NCBI GenBank assembly: GCA_947501445.1
Contig: CANMVS010000026.1
Span: 1 to 64,000 of the forward strand
From: an uncultured Rhizobiaceae group bacterium
GTDB taxonomy: Bacteria > Pseudomonadota > Alphaproteobacteria > Rhizobiales > Rhizobiaceae
DNA length: 64,000 nt
Direction: 5' to 3'
Shown: in pieces, positions 10,504 to 21,206 of the stretch
Position numbering within the stretch: the stretch's first letter is position 1
Layout: each line of letters opens with the position of its first letter
Position numbers and translations under genes: made by a program
The notes under the pieces: generated by a model
What the model was told of the DNA's origin: nothing
The model's input: only the letters and a program-made list of their open reading frames with translations
The model's database searches: none

Positions 10504-11229
10504 ATGATTGATTGTCGTATGAGCAGAAGCGAACGATTATTACAGTTGATGCAGTGTCTGCGCACCCTGCGACCACCGGTTCGGGCACAAGATCTGGCCC
10601 GGGAACTGCGTGTTTCCATGCGCTCAATCTATCGCGACATCGACACATTGCGCTCATCCGGTGCGATCATCGACGGTGAAGCAGGCTTTGGTTACACACT
10701 TGAAGAAGACCCGGCGCTGCCACCCATGATGTTCAGCCGCGATGAGATGGAAGCACTGGTTCTGGGCCTGCGTGAGGTCAATGAGGTTGCTGACCCGGTG
10801 TTGGCGGCGGCGGCGCGCGATGCACTGAGCAAGGTCAAAGCCAGTCTGCCGGAGCGAATGCGCATGCAATTCGATCACGCGGTTCTTCATGCAAAACGGT
10901 TTCACAAAAGGCCGGAAATCACCATAGATGTTGCCGCACTCAGACGCGCTGCCCGCGAGGAACTGGCCATTGATATTACCTATGGTGATTTCAATGAGAA
11001 GATCAGTGAACGCCGTGTGCTGCCCTTGGCAATCGTCTTCATGGATCGCGGTCTGGCATTGCTGGCCTGGTGCAAACTGCGTCAGGACTACCGGGTGTTC
11101 CGCATAGATCGCATTGCATCATTACTGATCAGTGATGAGGGTTTCCGCCCCCGCCGGGTCCATATGCTGCGTGAATTTCAACTGCAGCTGGACGCTCAGG
11201 CCCGGCAGGCACGCGCTGAACAACCTTAG
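10504..11229 (+). CDS. YafY-type HTH/WYL transcriptional regulator
   Basis: A 241-residue cytoplasmic regulator. Residues about 7-65 form a DeoR/HTH_11 winged helix (LLQLMQCLRTLRPPVRAQDL, then MRSIYRDIDTLRSSG). Residues about 140-225 form a WYL ligand-sensing domain. WYL proteins of this length commonly repress themselves and a divergent neighbour, here the GST gene. An alternative ATG at 10519 would remove five residues; the first ATG has the better-placed AGGA. The effector is unknown. Confidence 0.85.
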   Translation: MIDCRMSRSERLLQLMQCLRTLRPPVRAQDLARELRVSMRSIYRDIDTLRSSGAIIDGEAGFGYTLEEDPALPPMMFSRDEMEALVLGLREVNEVADPVLAAAARDALSKVKASLPERMRMQFDHAVLHAKRFHKRPEITIDVAALRRAAREELAIDITYGDFNEKISERRVLPLAIVFMDRGLALLAWCKLRQDYRVFRIDRIASLLISDEGFRPRRVHMLREFQLQLDAQARQARAEQP

Positions 11230-11372: not shown

Positions 11373-12578
11373 ATGAAAAATATTCTAATCCTTGGTGGGG
11401 ACGGTTTTTGTGGCTGGCCAACTGCTCTGCATCTGAGCCAGCAAAAGCACCGTGTTACAATCGTTGACAATCTATCCCGCCGCCAGATTGATGTGGAACT
11501 TGGCGCCGACAGCCTCACGCCAATCGCGTCGATGGAGGACCGTCTGGCAGCCTGGCAGGACGTTGGCGGAACACCCATAGGATTTGCCAATATTGATTGC
11601 GCCAATGAATATGACCGCCTGCGTGACCTGATTGCCGAGTTGCGTCCTGATACGGTCATTCAGTTTGCCGAGCAACGTGCTGCGCCCTATTCCATGAAAG
11701 ATGCGGCGCGCAAGATTTACACCGTCAACAACAATATCAGTGCCACGCACAATGTGCTCGCAGCGATAACCGAGCTGGCACTTGAGGTCCATGTTGTGCA
11801 TCTGGGGACGATGGGCGTTTATGGCTACGATGGCGACGGACTGGAAATTCCCGAAGGTTATCTGGATGTCTATGTGCCTGGTGAAAACCGGGAGATATTC
11901 CGTCGGTCGATTCTGTATCCGACAAATCCGGGCAGTGTCTATCATATGACAAAGTCCATGGATCAGCTGATGTTTCAGTTCTATGCAAAGAATGATCGTT
12001 TGCGCATAACTGATCTTCATCAGGGTATTGTCTGGGGTACGCAGACAGAAGAAACCCGGCTGCATCCGGATTTGATCAACCGTTTCGATTATGATGGTGA
12101 CTACGGCACGGTCCTCAATCGCTTTTTGATGCAGGCTGCTGTCGACCATCCGCTCACTGTGCATGGTTCCGGAGGTCAGACACGGGCATTCATCAATATT
12201 CAGGATACGGTTCGCTGCCTGGCGCTGGCCGTGGATAATCCGCCGGTGGCCGGTTCGCGGGTCAAGATCATCAATCAGATATCCGAATGTCATCGCGTGC
12301 GCGATCTGGCACGGATTGTCAGTGAAGTGACCGGCGCGCAAATCGCCTTTGTCGACAATCCTCGAAATGAAGCTGCCGAAAATGATCTTAGCGTCAGCAA
12401 CCGTACATTCATTGATCTTGGACTTGAACCCATCACACTGGAGAAAGGTCTGTTGAATGAAACGCTGGAGATATCCCGTAAATATGCCGACCGATGCCGT
12501 ACAGACATGATCCCTTGCGTGTCCACATGGACAGACAAACAGCGCCCGGGTCTTGTTGATGACGTCGTCGCGGCCTGA
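11373..12578 (+). CDS. sqdB: UDP-sulfoquinovose synthase (SqdB/SQD1-like)
   Basis: An extended-SDR nucleotide-sugar enzyme of 401 residues. It has the NAD-binding GGDGFCGWPTALHLS (8-22) and the SQD1-type blocks SLTPIAS, FAEQRAAPYSM and LGTMGVYG, with catalytic Thr146, Tyr190 and Lys194 (YHMTK). SQD1 enzymes convert UDP-glucose plus sulfite to UDP-sulfoquinovose, the donor for sulfolipid and for some sulfonated glycans. The match over the whole length, including GGQTRAFINI, makes the assignment firm at family level. No sulfolipid glycosyltransferase (SqdD/SqdX) is adjacent. A strong hairpin and then three envelope-polysaccharide genes follow instead, suggesting the sulfoquinovose may go into a glycan. 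It is preceded by an AGAGGA ribosome site. Confidence 0.85.
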   Translation: MKNILILGGDGFCGWPTALHLSQQKHRVTIVDNLSRRQIDVELGADSLTPIASMEDRLAAWQDVGGTPIGFANIDCANEYDRLRDLIAELRPDTVIQFAEQRAAPYSMKDAARKIYTVNNNISATHNVLAAITELALEVHVVHLGTMGVYGYDGDGLEIPEGYLDVYVPGENREIFRRSILYPTNPGSVYHMTKSMDQLMFQFYAKNDRLRITDLHQGIVWGTQTEETRLHPDLINRFDYDGDYGTVLNRFLMQAAVDHPLTVHGSGGQTRAFINIQDTVRCLALAVDNPPVAGSRVKIINQISECHRVRDLARIVSEVTGAQIAFVDNPRNEAAENDLSVSNRTFIDLGLEPITLEKGLLNETLEISRKYADRCRTDMIPCVSTWTDKQRPGLVDDVVAA

Positions 12579-12589
12579 TGAACGCGCCA

Positions 12590-12623
12590 GCGGTCCCGAA
12601 TCTTTTCGGGGCCGCGTCCTTTT
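12590..12623 (+). terminator. Hairpin terminator or attenuator after sqdB
   Basis: GCGGTCCCGAA (12590-12600) pairs with TTCGGGGCCGC (12605-12615) through one G-U, with a 4-nt loop, and is followed by CCTTTT. Only 22 bp separate the T-run from the next start codon, too short for a separate promoter. Partial read-through into the BcsB-like gene is therefore more likely than full termination. Confidence 0.7.
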
Positions 12624-12645
12624 GTGACAAATTCGGAGTTCTACA

Positions 12646-14241
12646 ATGCGTCTGATAGGTATCGGTTTATTGGCATTTGTTCTGGCTGCCGCAGCAATCA
12701 CGCTCTCCTACCTTGATGTCTGGCAGCGCGGCACGCGTGCGGTCTCCGAGTTGGCTTTAGGGCCGCAGTTGGTGTTTGAAAGCCAGGCTGCCCAGATGAA
12801 ACCAACCGCTGAATTTGATTATGCAATCAGTCGTGCCAGCCCGCGAAAAGCGATGATCCTGTCCGGGGTACCGTCCTATCAATCGGCTGTGTTTCCAATA
12901 CCTGTTGACGTGGACGTTGTTTCCGGTTTTCTGCGCATTGATGCAACCATGCAGGTCCTCAATGGCGTTGAAGGTGCATTGCGTGTCAGCATCGACAATT
13001 CAAAACGGGGTGAAATTCTGCTGCGTCCGGGCGAGATCCAGCGGTCGCTGAAGATACCGCTTTTGCCGGAAGAATTGCTGGCGGGACAAGTCCCCGTGTC
13101 TTTCAGCCTTCAAGGACGCGGTTCTGCGGCACAGTGCGTTCGCGATGACGGTATCGGTGCAGTGGTCGAAATTGAACAAACCAGTGCAGCTCACATCCAG
13201 ACGAATGAGGAATTGAAAACAATAAAGGATCTGGTTGCATCATGGGGAGATGTCGTTCGTATCGGCTGGCCGGACTGGCTTGATTCTGCTGAACGGCCGC
13301 GTCGGATCGCGCTCGGTGCGGCTCTCATGGAACAGGGCTACCACGTCGTGTTTCACAATGGCCCGGAAAGCGAGGCACTGACAACAACACAGTTGCGCAG
13401 CATCCTCGATGGGCAAGCCGACATTCAATCGGCCCTTCCTCTGGATCATCCGTCCTGGCCGCTCGCCATCGCGGCTTCCGGACAAAATGCCGGTGCACGT
13501 TGGTTCGACCATCAAACAACCTGGCGCAGCCAATATGATCTTCAGCAGTTTGACGGCGCAGAAATGGCCTCCGCCCTGCAGCTCGAACTTGCCCTTGGCT
13601 TCCTCCCACCGGAGGCTACATGGACAATATCGGCTACCCTCAATGGCCATCTGATCCACAGCCAGGCGGTTCCTGGTGATGCACGTGAATATGTGTCCAC
13701 CATTGCTCTGCCTGCAGAACTCCAAAACCGCATCAACACCTTGGAAGTACAGGCAAGTTCTAGCCATAGCCTTGAAGGCGTTTGCAATCGGGAACCGGAC
13801 AATATTGCTGAAATGAAACCGCAAACCATGATCCTTGGTGGGGGGCCATCGGCACCGGACAATCTGGTTTCATTTCTCAGCGAGATTGAACAGACCAATG
13901 AAATGCGCATTGGCCTTGCTGACACCTTGAGTGCGGCTCAGGCAACCCATGCCACTGAAATTCTGGCGCGTATCGGACAGTTGTCCTCCGTCGATTTTGC
14001 GTCAGGTCAATCCAATGCCAATGCCAGTACTAACGTGCAAATAGTCAGCGGCTCTCAATTGGCAACCATGACACCTGATAGCGGAATTCGCCGTTGGGCC
14101 GTATGGACAGACAAGTCCGGCAGGACAATTGAAGCTTCGACGCTGAATGGCCTTGAAGACAGACAGCAACTCAGTGATGTGGCTCTGGCGGTTGTGATTG
14201 AAGTCGACGACCAGAGCAGTGGTTCGGACAGCAGTTCATGA
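12646..14241 (+). CDS. BcsB-like periplasmic polysaccharide-synthase partner
   Basis: A 531-residue protein anchored by one N-terminal helix (about 4-24) with the rest in the periplasm. Two beta-rich modules each resemble the carbohydrate-binding/flavodoxin repeats of BcsB, the cellulose synthase partner: about residues 75-250 (with VSFSLQGRGSAAQC) and about 310-420 (with ATLNGHLIHSQ and LEVQASS). Unlike BcsB it lacks a C-terminal membrane anchor and is shorter than the usual 700 or more residues. Its stop overlaps the start of a processive GT2 synthase (ATGA), so the two are translationally coupled. Likely role: guiding the growing polymer through the periplasm. The BcsB relationship is by pattern, not by alignment. 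Confidence 0.6.
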   Translation: MRLIGIGLLAFVLAAAAITLSYLDVWQRGTRAVSELALGPQLVFESQAAQMKPTAEFDYAISRASPRKAMILSGVPSYQSAVFPIPVDVDVVSGFLRIDATMQVLNGVEGALRVSIDNSKRGEILLRPGEIQRSLKIPLLPEELLAGQVPVSFSLQGRGSAAQCVRDDGIGAVVEIEQTSAAHIQTNEELKTIKDLVASWGDVVRIGWPDWLDSAERPRRIALGAALMEQGYHVVFHNGPESEALTTTQLRSILDGQADIQSALPLDHPSWPLAIAASGQNAGARWFDHQTTWRSQYDLQQFDGAEMASALQLELALGFLPPEATWTISATLNGHLIHSQAVPGDAREYVSTIALPAELQNRINTLEVQASSSHSLEGVCNREPDNIAEMKPQTMILGGGPSAPDNLVSFLSEIEQTNEMRIGLADTLSAAQATHATEILARIGQLSSVDFASGQSNANASTNVQIVSGSQLATMTPDSGIRRWAVWTDKSGRTIEASTLNGLEDRQQLSDVALAVVIEVDDQSSGSDSSS

Positions 14242-16079
14242 CATTGCTTGAACGCACGGATCAAAGATCAGAAATCACTTTTCTGTCGGTGGATAGCGCG
14301 CCGAAACGTTTTGCCGGCCTGGTGCCCCAGTGGCGGGCGCCAGCCATGCTGATTGTTTTCAGCGGCCTTTCTGTGACTTTGATGTGGATGATCAACCAGT
14401 CCTATCTTGCAGATATATTCCCCCATCATGATCTGGTGTTTTCCACCTATGAAGGCAAACATTCCATTGCGATCAGAATTTTTGTTTTGTCTTTCTTTGT
14501 TGCCTTCAGTGCCTTTTCTTCAGCAAGCCCGCTGGGTCGCGTCCTGTTCGGGCTGGATATGGTGGTTTCCTTTCTGCTGATTTGCACAATTCTGGATATT
14601 GCCAATGCGGTGTTGTTGCGCAATTTCGGGCTGTCATACTCTTTGCATTTTGCTGAAATTGCCAGTGGTCTGATCGGCTTTGTCATATTTTCTTTCAAAC
14701 TCTTGGAGCGCGGCAGAATGCCGGACAGGATCAGGGTGGAGCATCGGCCGGTCAAGATTGGCCGCGCTGTTGTGCGGTTGCTGGTCTGCATATCCATTGC
14801 GGCCATTGTGGCTCTCTACGTCGGCAGTCTTGATCTGGTTGCCGTGGCTTACCTGCGACAATGGACCCTGCTGGGTGGAATTGGTCCAGGTGTCTTTTTG
14901 TTTCTGCCGTGCCTTTTCGGTTCTTTGTACATTCTGGCCATTTATGACTGGCTTATAACAAAACGAGCCGATTTTCGGCCGCCCGTCAGCATCATTGTAC
15001 CGGCACACAACGAGCAATATATCATCGCCAATACCATCCGGGCGATGGACAGGGCCGCGCGTCATTATGGTGGTGATGTTCATATATTGATCATGAACAA
15101 TAATTCAGCTGATGACACAAAAGCCATTGCCGAACAGGCGTTGCAAGCCTGCACCAGCGCAAAAGGGACAGTGATCGATGTTCCCCGACCCGGCAAATCA
15201 AATGCCCTGAATGCCGGCCTTGATGCTGCGCAGACAGAATTTCTTGTTCGGGTGGATGCTGACACGCAGTTGGGTGAAGACAATCTGACACGCGCAATGC
15301 GTTACTTTACAGATCCTGCCGTAGGCGTTGTTGGCGGTGTTCCAGTTCCACCTGGAGGCGCGTTGTTTGATCGTGCAAGGCTGCTTGAAGTATTGGTCAA
15401 ACACGGCTTTTACTCGGTGGCCATGGGTGCGGTGAATGGAGTTGTTGGCATTCCTGGCATGTTTGTTGTCTATCGCACCGAACACCCGCGCTACCTTGGC
15501 GGATTTGTCGAAGGAATGAATGGTGAGGATACGGATATTTCGCTGCGCATCGGTGAATTGGGATACCATTCCGTTGTTGACCCGCGCATTCGTTATGTCT
15601 CGGAAGTACCGGCGAGTTACACCCACATGCGCGAGCAACGCATGCGCTGGTTCCGTTCCATTTATCATATCAGTTCGCGCTGCCGCGATCTCATTTACTC
15701 GGACTGCCTGTCACTGCGGGGCAAATTAATCCTGCCATATATGCTCATTAATTCCGCACGCCGGGCTATGTTGGTTCCACTGATTCTATTTGGTGCTTTT
15801 GATTTTTACTTCGGGTTTAACCCTCAAAGCCCACTTATCTGGCAGGCAATTGTCGCTGTCATGGTGGGTGCACCGGCAATTATGGCGGTTATGGCAGCCC
15901 TGCTCAACGGCATGCCAAAAGGGCTGCTGGCAATTCCGGAATATCTTACATTCAGGGTTTTACGCGCCTATTTCACCCTTGAATCCATGCTGAGTATTTC
16001 CATCAAGGAGGATCGTGAGAATCTGGCGAGAGCTTATTTGCGCAATATTGTTCCAAACAAACCGCAAAGAGTTGCCTGA
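14238..16079 (+). CDS. Processive family 2 glycosyltransferase (cellulose-synthase-like)
   Basis: A 613-residue membrane synthase. Six to seven helices occupy about residues 35-240, the catalytic domain spans about 248-475, and further helices follow. The catalytic motifs of processive GT2 enzymes are complete: PAHNE (255-259), DAD (340-342), GED (429-431, acceptor base) and QRMRW (467-471, the QxxRW that holds the acceptor chain). Such enzymes polymerise a sugar from a UDP donor and pass the chain through their own membrane channel. No PilZ domain is evident, so direct c-di-GMP control is not indicated. It is coupled to the BcsB-like gene by overlapping start and stop, and is followed by an outer-membrane barrel candidate. 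Confidence 0.85.
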   Translation: MTLLERTDQRSEITFLSVDSAPKRFAGLVPQWRAPAMLIVFSGLSVTLMWMINQSYLADIFPHHDLVFSTYEGKHSIAIRIFVLSFFVAFSAFSSASPLGRVLFGLDMVVSFLLICTILDIANAVLLRNFGLSYSLHFAEIASGLIGFVIFSFKLLERGRMPDRIRVEHRPVKIGRAVVRLLVCISIAAIVALYVGSLDLVAVAYLRQWTLLGGIGPGVFLFLPCLFGSLYILAIYDWLITKRADFRPPVSIIVPAHNEQYIIANTIRAMDRAARHYGGDVHILIMNNNSADDTKAIAEQALQACTSAKGTVIDVPRPGKSNALNAGLDAAQTEFLVRVDADTQLGEDNLTRAMRYFTDPAVGVVGGVPVPPGGALFDRARLLEVLVKHGFYSVAMGAVNGVVGIPGMFVVYRTEHPRYLGGFVEGMNGEDTDISLRIGELGYHSVVDPRIRYVSEVPASYTHMREQRMRWFRSIYHISSRCRDLIYSDCLSLRGKLILPYMLINSARRAMLVPLILFGAFDFYFGFNPQSPLIWQAIVAVMVGAPAIMAVMAALLNGMPKGLLAIPEYLTFRVLRAYFTLESMLSISIKEDRENLARAYLRNIVPNKPQRVA

Positions 16080-16152
16080 CACTGGAGCAATGCACTGCGA
16101 TGACGTATCCTGCACCCGACTCAAAATGCGGTGGAGTGAAAGGTAGTCATTG

Positions 16153-17088
16153 ATGAGGTTGTCTGTTCCCTTGCTGGCGGCTGTATTTGTTTTAATGCTG
16201 CCAACGGCTGAAGTTCTTGGGCAATCATTGACGGCATCGCAGGTTTTTTCGGTAGGGCAGGAGCCATTTACCGGGGATGATGGTTCATCGTCCTCCGCAG
16301 TCAGCGATCTGGAGACAAGAATTCACATGACCAGCGCGATTGCGTTCAGCAATCGTTTGGAAAACGGCAATATCCTTTCCCTCAGTCATGAATTTGACTA
16401 CGCCAACAGCCCCGAGAACAGCGCTCACGACCGGTTTACCTTCAACAATCGCTTCGACATTCGCAGAAATCTTGGATCGGCCAAAAAATACCAGATAAAA
16501 TTCGAGGGTCAGCAGACCTGGCAGCTTGATAATGAGCAGTATGTTTTTTTGCGCCACCGCCTGGGCACGCGATTGTCGGTGCGCCACAACCGAATGAATA
16601 CGACGTACTTTCGGCTGCGGGGCGGGTATCGTGATCAAAATGACGCACTTTTTGAGGGCTATGATCAAGCCGAACTCACAAGCGAATTGACGCATCAATT
16701 GCGCCCCTTTGGTGACCGGCGCGCCGTCACGGGGACGTTTTATGGCGACTTTCGTTTCGCTGATGATCTGAAATACAGTTACGACGAATTCGGTGTGCGG
16801 CTGGTGCTGAGATACCCGGTGAACAAGGATGTGGTCCTGTCAACGCGGCTGGTGGCATTTGAGCGTCACTATGATGCTGAATTCTCTGCAACTTACCCGG
16901 TTGTGCGTCGTGATGTTCGCACCATTGCAAAATTTCAGGCCGATTACCGTTTTAACGACCATCTTGGCGGATTTGCGTTTGTTGGTTGGGATCGCAATGA
17001 TTCAAATGTCCCGATACGCGCCTATGACGGGGCAATATTCGGCGTTGGTATGAAGATATCAGCTGATTTGTGGAAGCGTGGACGTTGA
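16153..17088 (+). CDS. Predicted outer-membrane beta-barrel protein
   Basis: A 311-residue protein with a signal peptide ending near residue 24 (EVLGQS). The rest is dominated by short amphipathic strands with alternating aromatic and polar residues (YQIKFEGQQTW, TTYFRLRGGYRD, VTGTFYGDFRF), and it contains no helix-like stretch. This is typical of an outer-membrane barrel of roughly 12-14 strands. No specific family is recognised. It follows the synthase by 73 bp in the same direction and could be the export pore for the polymer, in the role BcsC or AlgE has elsewhere. The ATG at 16153 is used; the TTG directly before it is an alternative. Confidence 0.6.
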   Translation: MRLSVPLLAAVFVLMLPTAEVLGQSLTASQVFSVGQEPFTGDDGSSSSAVSDLETRIHMTSAIAFSNRLENGNILSLSHEFDYANSPENSAHDRFTFNNRFDIRRNLGSAKKYQIKFEGQQTWQLDNEQYVFLRHRLGTRLSVRHNRMNTTYFRLRGGYRDQNDALFEGYDQAELTSELTHQLRPFGDRRAVTGTFYGDFRFADDLKYSYDEFGVRLVLRYPVNKDVVLSTRLVAFERHYDAEFSATYPVVRRDVRTIAKFQADYRFNDHLGGFAFVGWDRNDSNVPIRAYDGAIFGVGMKISADLWKRGR

Positions 17089-17313
17089 GCCGCCTGGCGG
17101 ATTTCCTGACACAACAGGGTCGTGTTACCTTGGCTTTGTGTAAAAATAATACCCACTGCCGCGTCCATCAATACTGCGCGTCTATAAATGATGATTAAAG
17201 GTTGCAATGAAACTGGCAATGCTCATACAGTTTAAGCCGTTAGATTTGTTTGGATTTATTGATCTTTGTTGAGGTGCCACATTGGCGATGCATCATCAGG
17301 ACCGGATGGTACA

Positions 17314-17931
17314 ATGAATATTCTTATCGCCGATGACCACGACCTGGTTCGTGAAGCCATAGCCAACTACCTTGAGTCGCAGGGCGGTATGGCCGTCGAT
17401 CTGGCTTGTGACCTTGATGAGGCCATCGTGTGTATTGACGGCCGTATTGGCGGCTATGACGTTGTACTGCTGGATTATGGTATGCCCGGTATGAATGGTC
17501 TTGAAGGTTTGCAAAAGGCCATCAATGCGCAACCGGGAAATCCCATCGCGTTGATTTCGGGTGTTGCTTCGAGAAGCGTTGCCGAGGAGGCTCTTGCGGT
17601 TGGTGCAGCAGGATTTGTTCCCAAGACACTGGGAATGAAATCGATGCTCAATGCGGTGCGGTTCATGGCAGCCGGTGAACAATATGCGCCTGCGAAGTGG
17701 ATGACACAGTCCGACGATGACAATGTCAGTGAACTGGCTGCACGCCTTTCCGAGCGCGAAAGACAGGTGCTTGAAAGACTTTGCCGGGGTGGTTCCAACA
17801 AGGAAATCGCCCGTGAACTGGACCTGCAGGAAGTCACGATCAAATTGCATGTCAAAACGCTATGCAGAAAGCTGCAGGCACGAAACCGAACACACGCGGC
17901 TATGATCGCCAGGGACGAAGGTCTGTTTTGA
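17314..17931 (+). CDS. LuxR/NarL-type response regulator
   Basis: A 205-residue two-component regulator. The receiver domain (1-120) has the phospho-acceptor Asp54 (VLLDYGMPGM), acidic pair Asp7/Asp8 and Lys in VPKT. The C-terminal LuxR-type helix-turn-helix (about 140-205) contains LSERERQVLERL and GGSNKEIARELD. The ATG at 17314 places the receiver at the N-terminus; an earlier in-frame TTG at 17266 is rejected. It lies convergent to a hybrid histidine kinase and next to the polysaccharide genes, so it may be the partner of that kinase and may regulate those genes. This is inferred from position only. Confidence 0.88.
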   Translation: MNILIADDHDLVREAIANYLESQGGMAVDLACDLDEAIVCIDGRIGGYDVVLLDYGMPGMNGLEGLQKAINAQPGNPIALISGVASRSVAEEALAVGAAGFVPKTLGMKSMLNAVRFMAAGEQYAPAKWMTQSDDDNVSELAARLSERERQVLERLCRGGSNKEIARELDLQEVTIKLHVKTLCRKLQARNRTHAAMIARDEGLF

Positions 17932-18059: not shown

Positions 18060-20636
18060 CTAGTCTTCATCGATTGTAGCTATATATTCTTCCAGCGTTT
18101 TTGTGACTTTGTCGGCAGATTCGGCAATGCCCTCAATAGCTGCCAAGGCATCGTCCATGCGCCCGGTCTTGCAGGCATTTTCTATGTCGGCAAGCTGCTG
18201 ATTGAGGTGCGTGGCACCAAGGATTGCTGCCGTTCCGGCAATCTTGTGAACGGCCAGCTTCAATGCGTCAAAAGCACGTTGTCTGGCAAGGATCTTAACA
18301 TTGATTATGCCTTCGTCAATTTCCTTCAAGGCCCTGATCAATGTGGCCCTGAGAACATCGGGTGAAAGCGTTGTTATCAGTTCATCCAGCACATCCAGAT
18401 CGATTGGATCTTCTAAGTGGTTTTTTACGACCCCGGTGGATAAAGTCGATGGATCATTATCATCCAGTTGCATCAACAACGCATTGAGCGTTGCCATGCG
18501 AATGGGTTTCGTCAGGCAATGCTGCATGCCGGTCTTGGCAAATTGCAATTGTTCCTCAGGCAGGACATGGGCGGTAAGGCCGATGATCGCTGTGTTGCGA
18601 CACGGACCGTTGCCGGATCGGATTGCTTTGGTGGCCTGCATTCCATCCATGCCGGGCATGCTGATGTCCATCAGGATCAAATCGAAGTGACTTTCCTGTG
18701 CCATGGCAACGCCCTCGTGCCCATCAATTGCTTCCGAGGTGCGATGACCTGCACTGCGCAACATTTCGTTGATAACAAACCGATTGGTCTCATTGTCTTC
18801 CACAATAAGAATATTGAGTTTTTTCACACTGGCCAATGTGTCATTGGCGCCGGTCGCGGGACCATCCTGGATATTTTTTGTGCCGGTTGCGTGTGGCAGT
18901 GTAAGCCTTACTGAAAACCGGCTTCCCTGTCCCGGCGTACTTTCCAGAAAAATCTCGCCATCCATTGCTTCTACCAGCCGTTTACAAACGGCCAAGCCCA
19001 GTCCTGTGCCGGTGACACGTCGGTTGTAGGATGCATCAACGGTCACGAAATCATCGAATATACGGCTTTGATCGTCGTGTGAAATACCAATACCCGTGTC
19101 ACTCACATGCATTTCAATCGTTGCGCTGTCCGGAAACTCCTGCAGCACATCCAGACCGATGGTAACCTTTCCCTGCGGTGTGAATTTCACTGCATTGCCA
19201 ACCAGATTCAACAGGATCTGACGAAGCCTGTGATTGTCTCCTGCCAACGGGTGGGCGGGTGTCTTTACCTTGGCGATAATACGCACGCCATGGGCCTTGG
19301 CCGCCGGGCGATTGACATCTGCAACACCGGCAACGAGAGCGCCGAAATCCAGAATATGACTGTCGAGACTGATCTTGCCCACTTCGATGCGTGCTATATC
19401 AAGTACATCATTGACATGCCGCAATAAAATTTCACCCGATGAGGTTGCAACATTGAGATATTGGCGCTGGCGCTCGACCAGGTCGGTCTGTTTGAGAAGA
19501 TCAAGCACACCGAGCAGCCCGTTAAGGGGCGTGCGCATCTCGTGGCTCATGACCGCTATGAAATCACTTTTCGCCCTGTCTGCGGCCAGAGCCTCGTCCC
19601 GGGCCTTGGTCAGGGCATTCTGGCCTTCAATGCGCTGCGATATATCACGAATATAGGCAATGAAAATTGACCCTGATTTGTCCAATGCCGAACCAATGGA
19701 CAATTCAACCGGAAATTCTGTGCCATCGGCGCGCATGGCGCTTAACTCGACCCGCCCCTGGTCGACGACACGTTTTTCTCCGGTATCGCGAAAGCGGCTC
19801 ATGCCAATGTGATGGGCCTCAAGATAGTGTTCTGGGACCAACAGCGACGCCATATCCGCACCCACGGCGGTTTTTCGCGCAAATCCAAAAACAGTTTCTG
19901 CCGCTTTGTTCATCTCGATGATGGTGCCTGCATCATTGATGACGACAATAGCGTCAAGCGAGGCGTTGATGGTCGACAATTGACGCGTACTGCTGTGTTG
20001 AATTTCCTCTGCCCGGCTTTTGGATACCCGGAACAGGCGATAAAGGATTGCCAGTGTGAACACCAGGAGCAAAATGAGAGCAAGGGCAATGAGAGAGGCC
20101 GTCAGCAGCAATTGCTCGAATTTGGCGCGATGTTCATCTGATGATTGTGCGTAAAGGGAAACTCCGGTGAGAGACAATTTGCGTGCGGTTTGTCTCAGAC
20201 CTGCAAGCGCACTGCTGATTTCAGGCAAAGCTGCCGCCAACGGATCATCTGCACCATCCACCAGGCCGACATATCGCTGTAGAAATGTGTCCAGCGCGTC
20301 AATATCCAGACGCACCTGCTCATTGTTTCGCAGTTCTGCAAATACACGTCCCTGAGACAATGTATTGATCCTGCTGTAGAGGATATCAAAACGCTCTCTT
20401 ACCTGATCAAGCGCACCGTTTTTCTCATCTGCTGTCAGCGTCGCGTTCGTCAGCATCAGTAAATCGACTTCAAGCTGCGCCAGCGTCCATTGAACATTGT
20501 CGTGCGGTGCCGAGCGCAAACTGGTTACGGCATTAAAAAGGCGATAGCCGTAACTGGCAACCAGCACAACGATAAGCAGTGTCGCGATGGCAAAGAGGAT
20601 GCGGTTCAACACACCGGGTCTGGAGAGGCTGATCAT
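18060..20636 (-). CDS. Hybrid sensor histidine kinase with PAS, receiver and Hpt domains
   Basis: A membrane-bound sensor kinase of 858 residues. In order: TM1 (12-34), a periplasmic helical domain (about 40-175), TM2 (178-201), PAS (about 215-335), HisKA with His365 in SHEMRTPLNG, HATPase (N-box Asn481, DTGIGI, GTGLGL), receiver with Asp657 (LILMDISMPGMDG) and Hpt with His797 (AVHKIAGTA). All phosphorelay residues are present, so phosphate can move His-Asp-His and then to a separate regulator. The likely acceptor is the convergent LuxR-type protein at 17314. The gene upstream in the same direction encodes a small exported molybdopterin-fold protein that could act as a periplasmic sensor partner. 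Confidence 0.92.
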   Translation of the reverse strand: MISLSRPGVLNRILFAIATLLIVVLVASYGYRLFNAVTSLRSAPHDNVQWTLAQLEVDLLMLTNATLTADEKNGALDQVRERFDILYSRINTLSQGRVFAELRNNEQVRLDIDALDTFLQRYVGLVDGADDPLAAALPEISSALAGLRQTARKLSLTGVSLYAQSSDEHRAKFEQLLLTASLIALALILLLVFTLAILYRLFRVSKSRAEEIQHSSTRQLSTINASLDAIVVINDAGTIIEMNKAAETVFGFARKTAVGADMASLLVPEHYLEAHHIGMSRFRDTGEKRVVDQGRVELSAMRADGTEFPVELSIGSALDKSGSIFIAYIRDISQRIEGQNALTKARDEALAADRAKSDFIAVMSHEMRTPLNGLLGVLDLLKQTDLVERQRQYLNVATSSGEILLRHVNDVLDIARIEVGKISLDSHILDFGALVAGVADVNRPAAKAHGVRIIAKVKTPAHPLAGDNHRLRQILLNLVGNAVKFTPQGKVTIGLDVLQEFPDSATIEMHVSDTGIGISHDDQSRIFDDFVTVDASYNRRVTGTGLGLAVCKRLVEAMDGEIFLESTPGQGSRFSVRLTLPHATGTKNIQDGPATGANDTLASVKKLNILIVEDNETNRFVINEMLRSAGHRTSEAIDGHEGVAMAQESHFDLILMDISMPGMDGMQATKAIRSGNGPCRNTAIIGLTAHVLPEEQLQFAKTGMQHCLTKPIRMATLNALLMQLDDNDPSTLSTGVVKNHLEDPIDLDVLDELITTLSPDVLRATLIRALKEIDEGIINVKILARQRAFDALKLAVHKIAGTAAILGATHLNQQLADIENACKTGRMDDALAAIEGIAESADKVTKTLEEYIATIDED

Positions 20637-20690: not shown

Positions 20691-21206
20691 CTATTCCAGC
20701 ACATGGATTGATTTGAGCTGCCAAATACTGCGTGAATAGATGACCTCGCTGCGGTACTTGCGATGCTTGTCATATGGATAGATAATCCACAGGGGACCCC
20801 GCTCCCGCACAGACATTTTTTCTGAATTGAGATGATGCGCAATGATCGGCCCGTCGATGACAGCGTCCTCGATTGGGATGGTGACCTTATAGTCGTTGAT
20901 GGCGATAGCCTCAAGGGCGTTACCCCTGGCACCAACATGCTCCAGCAATGTCTTTAGACTGACACCGGAAAATTGATTTGTGCCGTCGGTCCATATCGTC
21001 GATGTGGAAATTTCTTCAACGGGCAAAGCCTCCAGCATCTCAATATCAAATGCTGCAGTTTTTCCCACATTGGTTTGCTCAATCGCACCGGTCACCGTCA
21101 GGATGACATCGCCTTGCGGTGCTGCAAGTTCTGCGGCTGCCCCATGGAATGGCAAAAACATTGTACATAGAACAATGATGGTTCGGGCGTGGGAAAATGC
21201 GCTCAT
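20691..21206 (-). CDS. Small exported molybdopterin-oxidoreductase-fold protein
   Basis: A 171-residue protein with a signal peptide (about 1-25, ending GAAAEL). Its body resembles the sulfite-oxidase-type molybdopterin-binding fold (VILTVTGAIEQTN, FSGVSLKTLLEHVGA, PLWIIYPYDKH). The mature part shows no cysteine able to coordinate molybdenum, so it is probably a non-catalytic or sensing relative. It lies 54 bp upstream of the hybrid kinase on the same strand. Pairs like this recur in alphaproteobacteria, which suggests the protein feeds a periplasmic signal to the kinase; that is inference. Confidence 0.7.
   Translation of the reverse strand: MSAFSHARTIIVLCTMFLPFHGAAAELAAPQGDVILTVTGAIEQTNVGKTAAFDIEMLEALPVEEISTSTIWTDGTNQFSGVSLKTLLEHVGARGNALEAIAINDYKVTIPIEDAVIDGPIIAHHLNSEKMSVRERGPLWIIYPYDKHRKYRSEVIYSRSIWQLKSIHVLE

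Follow-up and report, generated by a model that had tools for sequence, protein, structure and literature searches.

A three-gene unit, made up of sqdB, a BcsB-like gene and a gene for a glycosyltransferase of family 2 (GT2), probably makes a surface polymer that contains sulfoquinovose (SQ). It would do so by joining SqdB, a homologue of uridine diphosphate (UDP)-sulfoquinovose synthase, to a synthase of the BcsA/BcsB kind. The unit, here called the trio, is found in a stretch of 64,000 nucleotides from an uncultured Rhizobiaceae group bacterium (assembly GCA_947501445.1, contig CANMVS010000026.1), which is called the window. Gene order, homology, catalytic motifs and co-occurrence are all directly observed, as is the position of this SqdB outside the clade of sulfolipid enzymes. 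A first-pass annotation of the window had proposed a sulfonated glycan, made at the inner membrane and exported. The conserved linkage of the genes supports that proposal, with the SQ chemistry as its predicted part.

The first-pass annotation linked sqdB to its neighbours by adjacency, and suggested a co-occurrence search in which rare adjacency in related genomes would count against the idea. Adjacency turns out to be common. A scan of genome contigs for GT2 kept the best 80 of 82 loci, and sqdB adjoins GT2 in 59 of these 80. Several scans pooled together give 66 trio loci, leaving out L088, which is a second copy of L089. In all 66 loci that have both genes together, sqdB is upstream of GT2 and on the same strand, and this constant order and strand rules out chance adjacency. 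There is a BcsB-like match nearby, with an open frame of 516-674 amino acids between sqdB and GT2, in 65 of the 66. In three actinobacterial loci (L044, L050, L053) bcsB overlaps sqdB by 4 bases.

These loci span two phyla, with Rhodobacterales, sphingomonads and Devosia on one side and actinobacteria on the other. Among the hosts are Roseobacteraceae/Paracoccaceae, Novosphingobium, Erythrobacter, Devosia, Rhodococcus, Nocardia, Gordonia, Williamsia, Mycolicibacterium and Nocardioides. A search of phage records for the GT2 gave no match.

Co-occurrence was also counted over whole genomes, at a threshold of E 1e-60. In a sample of 151 genomes from an actinobacterial family, GT2 is present in 10 and sqdB in 14. 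All 10 GT2-bearing genomes carry sqdB, versus 4 of the 141 others (Fisher p 8e-13), so that four genomes have sqdB without GT2. Four of the 10 (G470, G473, G476, G497) had already been found by the initial GT2 scan. Next to the actinobacterial GT2 copies, sqdB lies about 2 kb upstream in 11 of 12. The sample of the window's class (337 genomes) has sqdB in 28 and GT2 in at least 3, a possible lower bound given that at most 3 candidates per genome were scored. Here sqdB is present in 3/3 GT2-bearing genomes versus 25/334 others (p 5e-4), and adjacent in 3/3. For the family sample (121 genomes: GT2 in 3, sqdB in 55) the numbers are 3/3 versus 52/118 (p 0.09), again adjacent in 3/3. These Fisher tests assume that genomes are independent of one another and include the centre genome of each sample; G000 is in both the family and the class samples.

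Among the genomes behind the 80 loci that were searched whole, 42 of 42 (23 plus 19) carry sqdB. In 19 of 19 genomes sqdB is present elsewhere than beside the fetched GT2 locus. This counts as weak support because most of these genomes are confounded by a glycosyltransferase of family 4 (GT4) resembling SqdX. Maricaulales-type genomes make up 17 of the 19, and G497 has a linked locus as well.

The SqdB of the window matches Arabidopsis SQD1 (1qrr_A) over nearly its full length (residues 1-386, E 3.2e-96). According to excerpts of PMC8987622, [ST]MGxnYx3K is the signature of UDP-sulfoquinovose synthase. The window protein keeps it as T146, M147, G148, Y190 and K194, and also has H191, which bears out the earlier reading of SqdB/SQD1 sequence blocks. 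Across the 66 trio rows, M147 is present in 65, while T or S at 146, G148, Y190 and K194 are each present in all 66. Trio and sulfolipid-type SqdB have these residues in common.

The window genome also has a second SqdB, on contig C11, which is 61% identical to that of the window and 83-84% identical to four Sinorhizobium copies. It is followed by a GT8 protein and then an epimerase, taken by family and order to be SqdD and SqdC. This is the sqdB-sqdD-sqdC layout that in Rhodobacter serves the sulfolipid sulfoquinovosyl diacylglycerol (SQDG), as described in excerpts of PMC11346425. The first-pass annotation had found SqdD and SqdX absent. That holds for the stretch it described: neither sqdD nor sqdC adjoins the window sqdB. 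For the genome as a whole it fails as to SqdD, since the only SqdD match (E up to 1e-20) is on C11. The C11 group thus rules out the idea that this genome has no sulfolipid genes.

A quick tree of 151 SqdB rows places all 47 SqdD-adjacent rows in one clade of 51, with 99 on the Shimodaira-Hasegawa-like approximate likelihood ratio test (SH-aLRT) and no trio members. The window SqdB is outside this clade, among Rhodobacterales (roseobacter) trio enzymes, and in an 87-row tree the window GT2 is also among Rhodobacterales; both trees hold several long branches of unsure place. In the family sample there are 58 copies of sqdB: 43 with sqdD/sqdC, 6 with the SqdX-like GT4, 3 with GT2, and 6 beside no such partner, of which 4 fall in the sulfolipid clade. 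Only 3 of the 121 family genomes carry GT2, and it appears that the window genome gained the locus horizontally. The GC content does not mark it as foreign, at 52.2% for the locus and 53.3% for the window.

A search of 29 genomes for SqdD (E up to 1e-20) found it in 3 (G000, G111, G464), each time beside a second sqdB; a search of 19 others found it in 0. The SqdX-like GT4 (E up to 1e-25) was searched in 49 genomes, one of which is a control. It is present at 46-53% identity in 23 of the remaining 48: the 18 Maricaulales-type genomes plus G099, G327, G162, G465 and G471. Eight further genomes have matches at 31-34%. Of the 27 genomes with GT2-linked sqdB given both searches, 13 yielded neither transferase (G138, G457-G462, G467-G469, G472, G473, G476). 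Sulfitobacter marinus DSM 23422 and Tateyamaria omphalii are examples of trio hosts in which neither was detected; T. omphalii carries the trio twice. The GT4 searched for is one that adjoins sqdB in six family loci (L161, L165, L166, L167, L168, L170; 62-68% identical to that of L167). We take this GT4 to be SqdX-like, as a candidate only. Its pairing with sqdB looks like another arrangement of the sulfolipid type, within a family that also has sqdBDC.

The GT2 fits a processive synthase, judging by its QxxRW and GED motifs, its flanking hydrophobic segments and its BcsB-like partner. The PAHNE, DAD, GED and QRMRW motifs reported earlier are all present in the window protein. In an alignment of 28 proteins that includes it, there is no variation in columns P255, A256, E259, D340-D342, G429-D431, Q467, R468, R470 and W471 and almost none in N258; H257 and M469 are variable. 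There are hydrophobic segments both before and after the catalytic domain. The family profile built from these 28 proteins matches the structures of BcsA and hyaluronan synthase. The top NCBIfam model, PgaC (TIGR03937), gives 75.4 bits against a cutoff of 422.3, and the CelA/BcsA equivalog TIGR03030 scores 17.3 bits against 699.1. A Pfam scan at E up to 0.01 finds no PilZ domain. The same alignment has a strongly conserved N-terminal motif, SVDSAP, before the first membrane segment (residues 17-22, window 14286-14303), in which D19, S20 and P22 are invariant.

The GT2 and BcsB-like proteins were compared by sequence profiles. PF03170 (BcsB) is matched by 45 of 51 aligned BcsB-like proteins (E up to 0.1, best 2.5e-10). 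The window protein is not one that matches any Pfam family; it has a single hydrophobic segment, residues 1-27. The barrel protein of the window likewise has no Pfam match; 20 relatives were aligned from GT2 loci, and some of these weakly match beta-barrel families. No TPR was found by Pfam scan in the 312-residue barrel protein or its relatives.

Put together, the proposed pathway runs as follows. SqdB would make UDP-SQ from UDP-glucose and sulfite. The GT2 would then transfer SQ, alone or with another sugar, onto a growing chain and thread this chain through the inner membrane. In the periplasm the BcsB-like protein would receive it, and its exit from Gram-negative cells would be by way of the barrel or a substitute. 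The neighbouring two-component system probably regulates expression.

Several observations weigh against this. Polymer, enzyme activity and donor specificity are predictions, and the UDP-SQ assignment of the trio SqdB comes from homology. None of nine scanned SqdB proteins reaches the NCBIfam cutoff. The window SqdB scores 332.8 bits on NF041015, under the cutoff of 575. Two sqdBDC-type controls are among the nine, at 341.7 bits (the same genome's own) and 333.9 bits; because these fail too, the cutoff looks too narrow for this SqdB branch, and the idea that a low score means a different enzyme is weakened. The trio SqdB do not form one clade, with 5 label changes in the 151-row tree. One linked locus, in G138, has no adjoining BcsB match, and sqdB stands directly beside GT2. 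Conversely, G162 has sqdB, the BcsB-like gene and the barrel together, and no GT2 was found in the assembly; its locus (L094) has barrel, sqdB and a 659-residue BcsB-like gene in a row near the contig end. In the window, sqdB and bcsB have a terminator-like hairpin between them. Of the five non-Maricaulales genomes with a GT4 at 46-53% identity, four have GT2-linked sqdB. Finally, sqdB is not adjacent to GT2 in 21 of the 80 loci: 18 of Maricaulales type, Pontivivens, one Trueperaceae and a second locus in one Rhodococcus. The Trueperaceae genome has a GT4 (34%) directly beside sqdB. All 18 Maricaulales-type genomes carry a GT4 that is 46-51% identical to the SqdX-like protein, and for this reason their unlinked sqdB may make sulfolipid.

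These Maricaulales-type loci differ in other ways. In most of them the barrel and the BcsB-like gene are oriented opposite to GT2. BcsB-like proteins of about 630-670 residues are found mostly in actinobacterial and Maricaulales-type loci, and most alphaproteobacterial trio loci have about 515-565. Actinobacterial and Maricaulales-type sequences group together in the GT2 tree (SH-aLRT 99), a grouping flagged for long branches. The short flanks fetched with the unlinked sqdB copies show no match to sqdD, GT2 or BcsB, and the copy of Maricaulis maris (L095) stands alone. A barrel was detected near 14 of the 18 loci of Maricaulales type and near none of the actinobacterial loci; for the 39 alphaproteobacterial trio loci the count is 8 by tblastn and 6 by clustering. 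The barrel is thus more loosely linked than sqdB, bcsB and GT2 are, and its distribution is in keeping with an outer-membrane role.

What exactly the polymer looks like can be argued in two ways. It is conceivable, as a tentative proposal, that the product is a beta-linked SQ homopolymer, in effect a natural sulfonated cellulose in which each sugar bears one sulfonate, and that the same synthase core makes it in Gram-negative marine bacteria and in mycolic-acid actinobacteria. This is the simplest form because the recurrent neighbours that could be named include no second sugar-nucleotide gene or glycosyltransferase. That same absence, which covers a subset of the conserved neighbour clusters, speaks against a heteropolymer, a version of the SQ polymer in which the GT2 backbone consists of or includes another sugar, such as glucose or N-acetylglucosamine (GlcNAc), with SQ alternating or minor. 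Hyaluronan synthase, which matches the GT2 profile, uses two donors, and PgaC, the top-scoring model, is a GlcNAc polymerase. We hold the heteropolymer to be a possibility of about the same standing as the homopolymer. It is unlikely that the GT2 is instead a non-processive transferase which places SQ on a lipid or cell-wall carrier: the presence of the trio in hosts with very different envelopes would suit it, and processivity is itself a prediction, but the motifs, the hydrophobic segments on both sides of the transferase domain and the BcsB-like partner point the other way.

The remaining explanations concern SqdB. Without sulfite, UDP-SQ synthase behaves as a 5,6-dehydratase, according to passages of PMC8987622, so the enzyme could yield another product, for example a 5,6-ene, and the polymer could carry a different modified sugar. 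Given the 61% identity between the two SqdB of the window genome, and the signature residues that the trio and sulfolipid types share, this is very unlikely. The trio copy could also simply serve SQDG, as SqdB does in Rhodobacter (excerpts of PMC11346425), and merely stand beside an unrelated polysaccharide synthase. The GT4 at 46% identity or more to the SqdX-like query in 23 of 48 genomes fits such a role. However, the window genome has a separate sqdB-sqdD-sqdC group, the trio SqdB is outside the sulfolipid clade, the gene order is kept across phyla, and 13 of 27 GT2-linked genomes lack a detected transferase of either kind. This makes the sulfolipid explanation highly improbable, and the SQ polymer the preferred one.

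If the trio acts as a unit, the hairpin between sqdB and bcsB has to be accounted for. The first-pass annotation had noted it, and its stem is indeed there. The whole stretch of 101 nucleotides around it does not fold unusually (z -1.42), and the region has 10 terminator-like sites, close to the 8.1 in shuffles. A strong hairpin lies within 100 bases after sqdB in 24 of 37 loci examined. In 22 of 66 other trio rows the gap holds a different hairpin that was not detected in the window. It has a 13-bp stem and an 8-base loop, CUUGGAGG, which is invariant. Of its cells, 90.9% are paired, versus 33-42% with the partner slid, a control that favours the structure as it was drawn from the same sequences. 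Covariation is found in 11 of 13 pairs, which changed on both sides. An example is L013:8364-8415, with 22 further roseobacter-type loci (such as L005, L011, L020 and L091). A covariance model finds the hairpin in 23 of 54 sources, always in the sqdB-bcsB gap; 3 more hits are the opposite strand of the same places. No Rfam family reaches threshold in this gap in the four loci searched. The loop contains GGAGG, which resembles a Shine-Dalgarno sequence. A scan of viral contigs for the loop pattern gave 95 stretches, taken as chance. The hairpin may set the relative expression of sqdB and bcsB. It is not a strong argument against an operon because of the 4-base overlap in L044, L050 and L053 and the CUUGGAGG hairpin in other loci.

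The features of the locus are listed in Table 1. The four codirectional genes have the coordinates and direction given earlier, as well as the overlap of 4 bases between bcsB and GT2 (14238-14241).

Table 1. Features of the window's sqdB/BcsB/GT2 locus and the genes next to it.
Feature	Position	Strand	Description
sqdB	11373..12578	+	UDP-sulfoquinovose synthase homologue, 401 residues, trio type
Hairpin between sqdB and bcsB	12590..12615	+	Terminator- or attenuator-like; 11-bp stem, then GTCCTTTTGT
BcsB-like protein	12646..14241	+	531 residues, N-terminal membrane segment, predicted periplasmic
GT2 polysaccharide synthase, processive type	14238..16079	+	613 residues, Pfam GT2 families
Outer-membrane beta-barrel, predicted	16150..17088	+	312 residues, signal-like N-terminus; listed start TTG, second codon ATG
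LuxR-type response regulator	17266..17931	+	Response_reg and GerE domains; probable regulator of the locus
Hybrid sensor histidine kinase	18060..20636	-	HisKA, HATPase, receiver and Hpt domains; probably pairs with the response regulator
Small Oxidored_molyb-like protein	20691..21206	-	PF00174, weak; upstream of the kinase gene

Neighbours were counted in 39 alphaproteobacterial trio loci (from the best 80 of 82) and in 21 actinobacterial loci. In the former, the kinase cluster is present in 22 and the LuxR-type regulator cluster in 21, and this two-component system probably controls expression of the trio. Among the same 39 loci, 21 have a small molybdopterin-type protein, 11 a Sel1-repeat protein and 8 an RTX protein. 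The Oxidored_molyb-like protein of the window is 50% identical over 119 residues to its counterpart in L005, and the cluster of that counterpart is present in 21 of the 39. Directly 5' of the window sqdB, in the same direction, is a gene for a WYL-domain regulator (10504-11229), which has no match in the tblastn table of other loci.

Of the 21 actinobacterial loci, 8 have an alkylsulfatase-type gene within the fetched stretch, 8 have a SulP transporter and 7 have a DUF389 gene. On a Rhodococcus plasmid (L085:7256-18771) the flanks of the trio hold a SulP anion transporter and an alkyl-sulfatase-type gene. L081, from a contig titled Rhodococcus sp. JCM 9791, carries a cyanobacterial family label, probably through a labelling or assembly mix-up. 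Other sqdB genes have other company. On a plasmid of Rhodobacteraceae bacterium M382 (L117:5995-9758), sqdB is beside a sulfotransferase gene and a phosphoadenylyl-sulfate reductase gene, near glycosyltransferases. The reductase is a possible source of sulfite, and this is perhaps a second kind of SQ glycan. On an Agrobacterium plasmid (L115:563-7332) glycosyltransferases and methyltransferases surround a distant sqdB (43% identity), possibly one more setting for an SQ glycan.

SQ is mostly discussed as the sulfolipid headgroup of photosynthetic organisms. Roseobacters are known as users of SQ (excerpts of PMC10755693). If the trio makes an SQ polymer, heterotrophic bacteria, roseobacters and rhodococci among them, become producers as well, the sulfur cycle gains a new source, and the BcsA/BcsB type of machine extends to a strongly acidic sugar. 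An SQ homopolymer would in addition establish a new polyanion class in bacteria and a pool of organic sulfur that has so far gone unrecognised. That the unit consists of just three genes makes the idea directly testable. In open-access literature, which mostly leaves subscription papers outside, no report was recognised of an SqdB/BcsB/GT2 system or of an SQ polymer from a bacterial synthase. The conserved pairing of a sulfonated-sugar enzyme with machinery like that of cellulose synthase points to a sulfonated polysaccharide at the surface of some marine bacteria and soil actinobacteria, one for which no description was found.

Synthases of this general build are not new. Cellulose synthase consists of the GT2 BcsA, its partner BcsB and a separate outer-membrane barrel, BcsC, which has TPR repeats. 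The trio shares with it a membrane GT2 with DxD, xED and QxxRW, a partner of the BcsB family and, in Gram-negatives, a separate barrel. It differs in that its GT2 has no PilZ match and has GED instead of TED, its BcsB-like protein has a hydrophobic segment at the N-terminus only, and its barrel has no TPR match. No GH8/BcsZ match is found among ten neighbourhood proteins scanned. In addition, sqdB belongs to the unit, bcsB precedes the synthase gene, and the unit is also found in actinobacteria. PgaC/IcaA, the poly-N-acetylglucosamine synthase, supplies the top-scoring NCBIfam model for the trio GT2, but the score is far below the cutoff, and no other Pga model is among the NCBIfam matches shown for the ten neighbourhood proteins.

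The sqdBDC operon of Rhodobacter and Sinorhizobium has a homologous UDP-SQ synthase with the same signature residues. The trio sqdB has no adjoining SqdD or SqdC, its SqdB is of a different clade, and it is accompanied instead by genes for a polymer synthase and a BcsB-like protein. Closest in purpose is Agl3 of Sulfolobus acidocaldarius, which, according to excerpts of PMC8987622 and PMC9549778, provides UDP-SQ for an extracellular glycan and not for a lipid. There SQ is part of the S-layer N-glycans, a protein-linked oligosaccharide made by archaeal N-glycosylation, whereas the trio would feed SQ to a synthase-dependent polymer.

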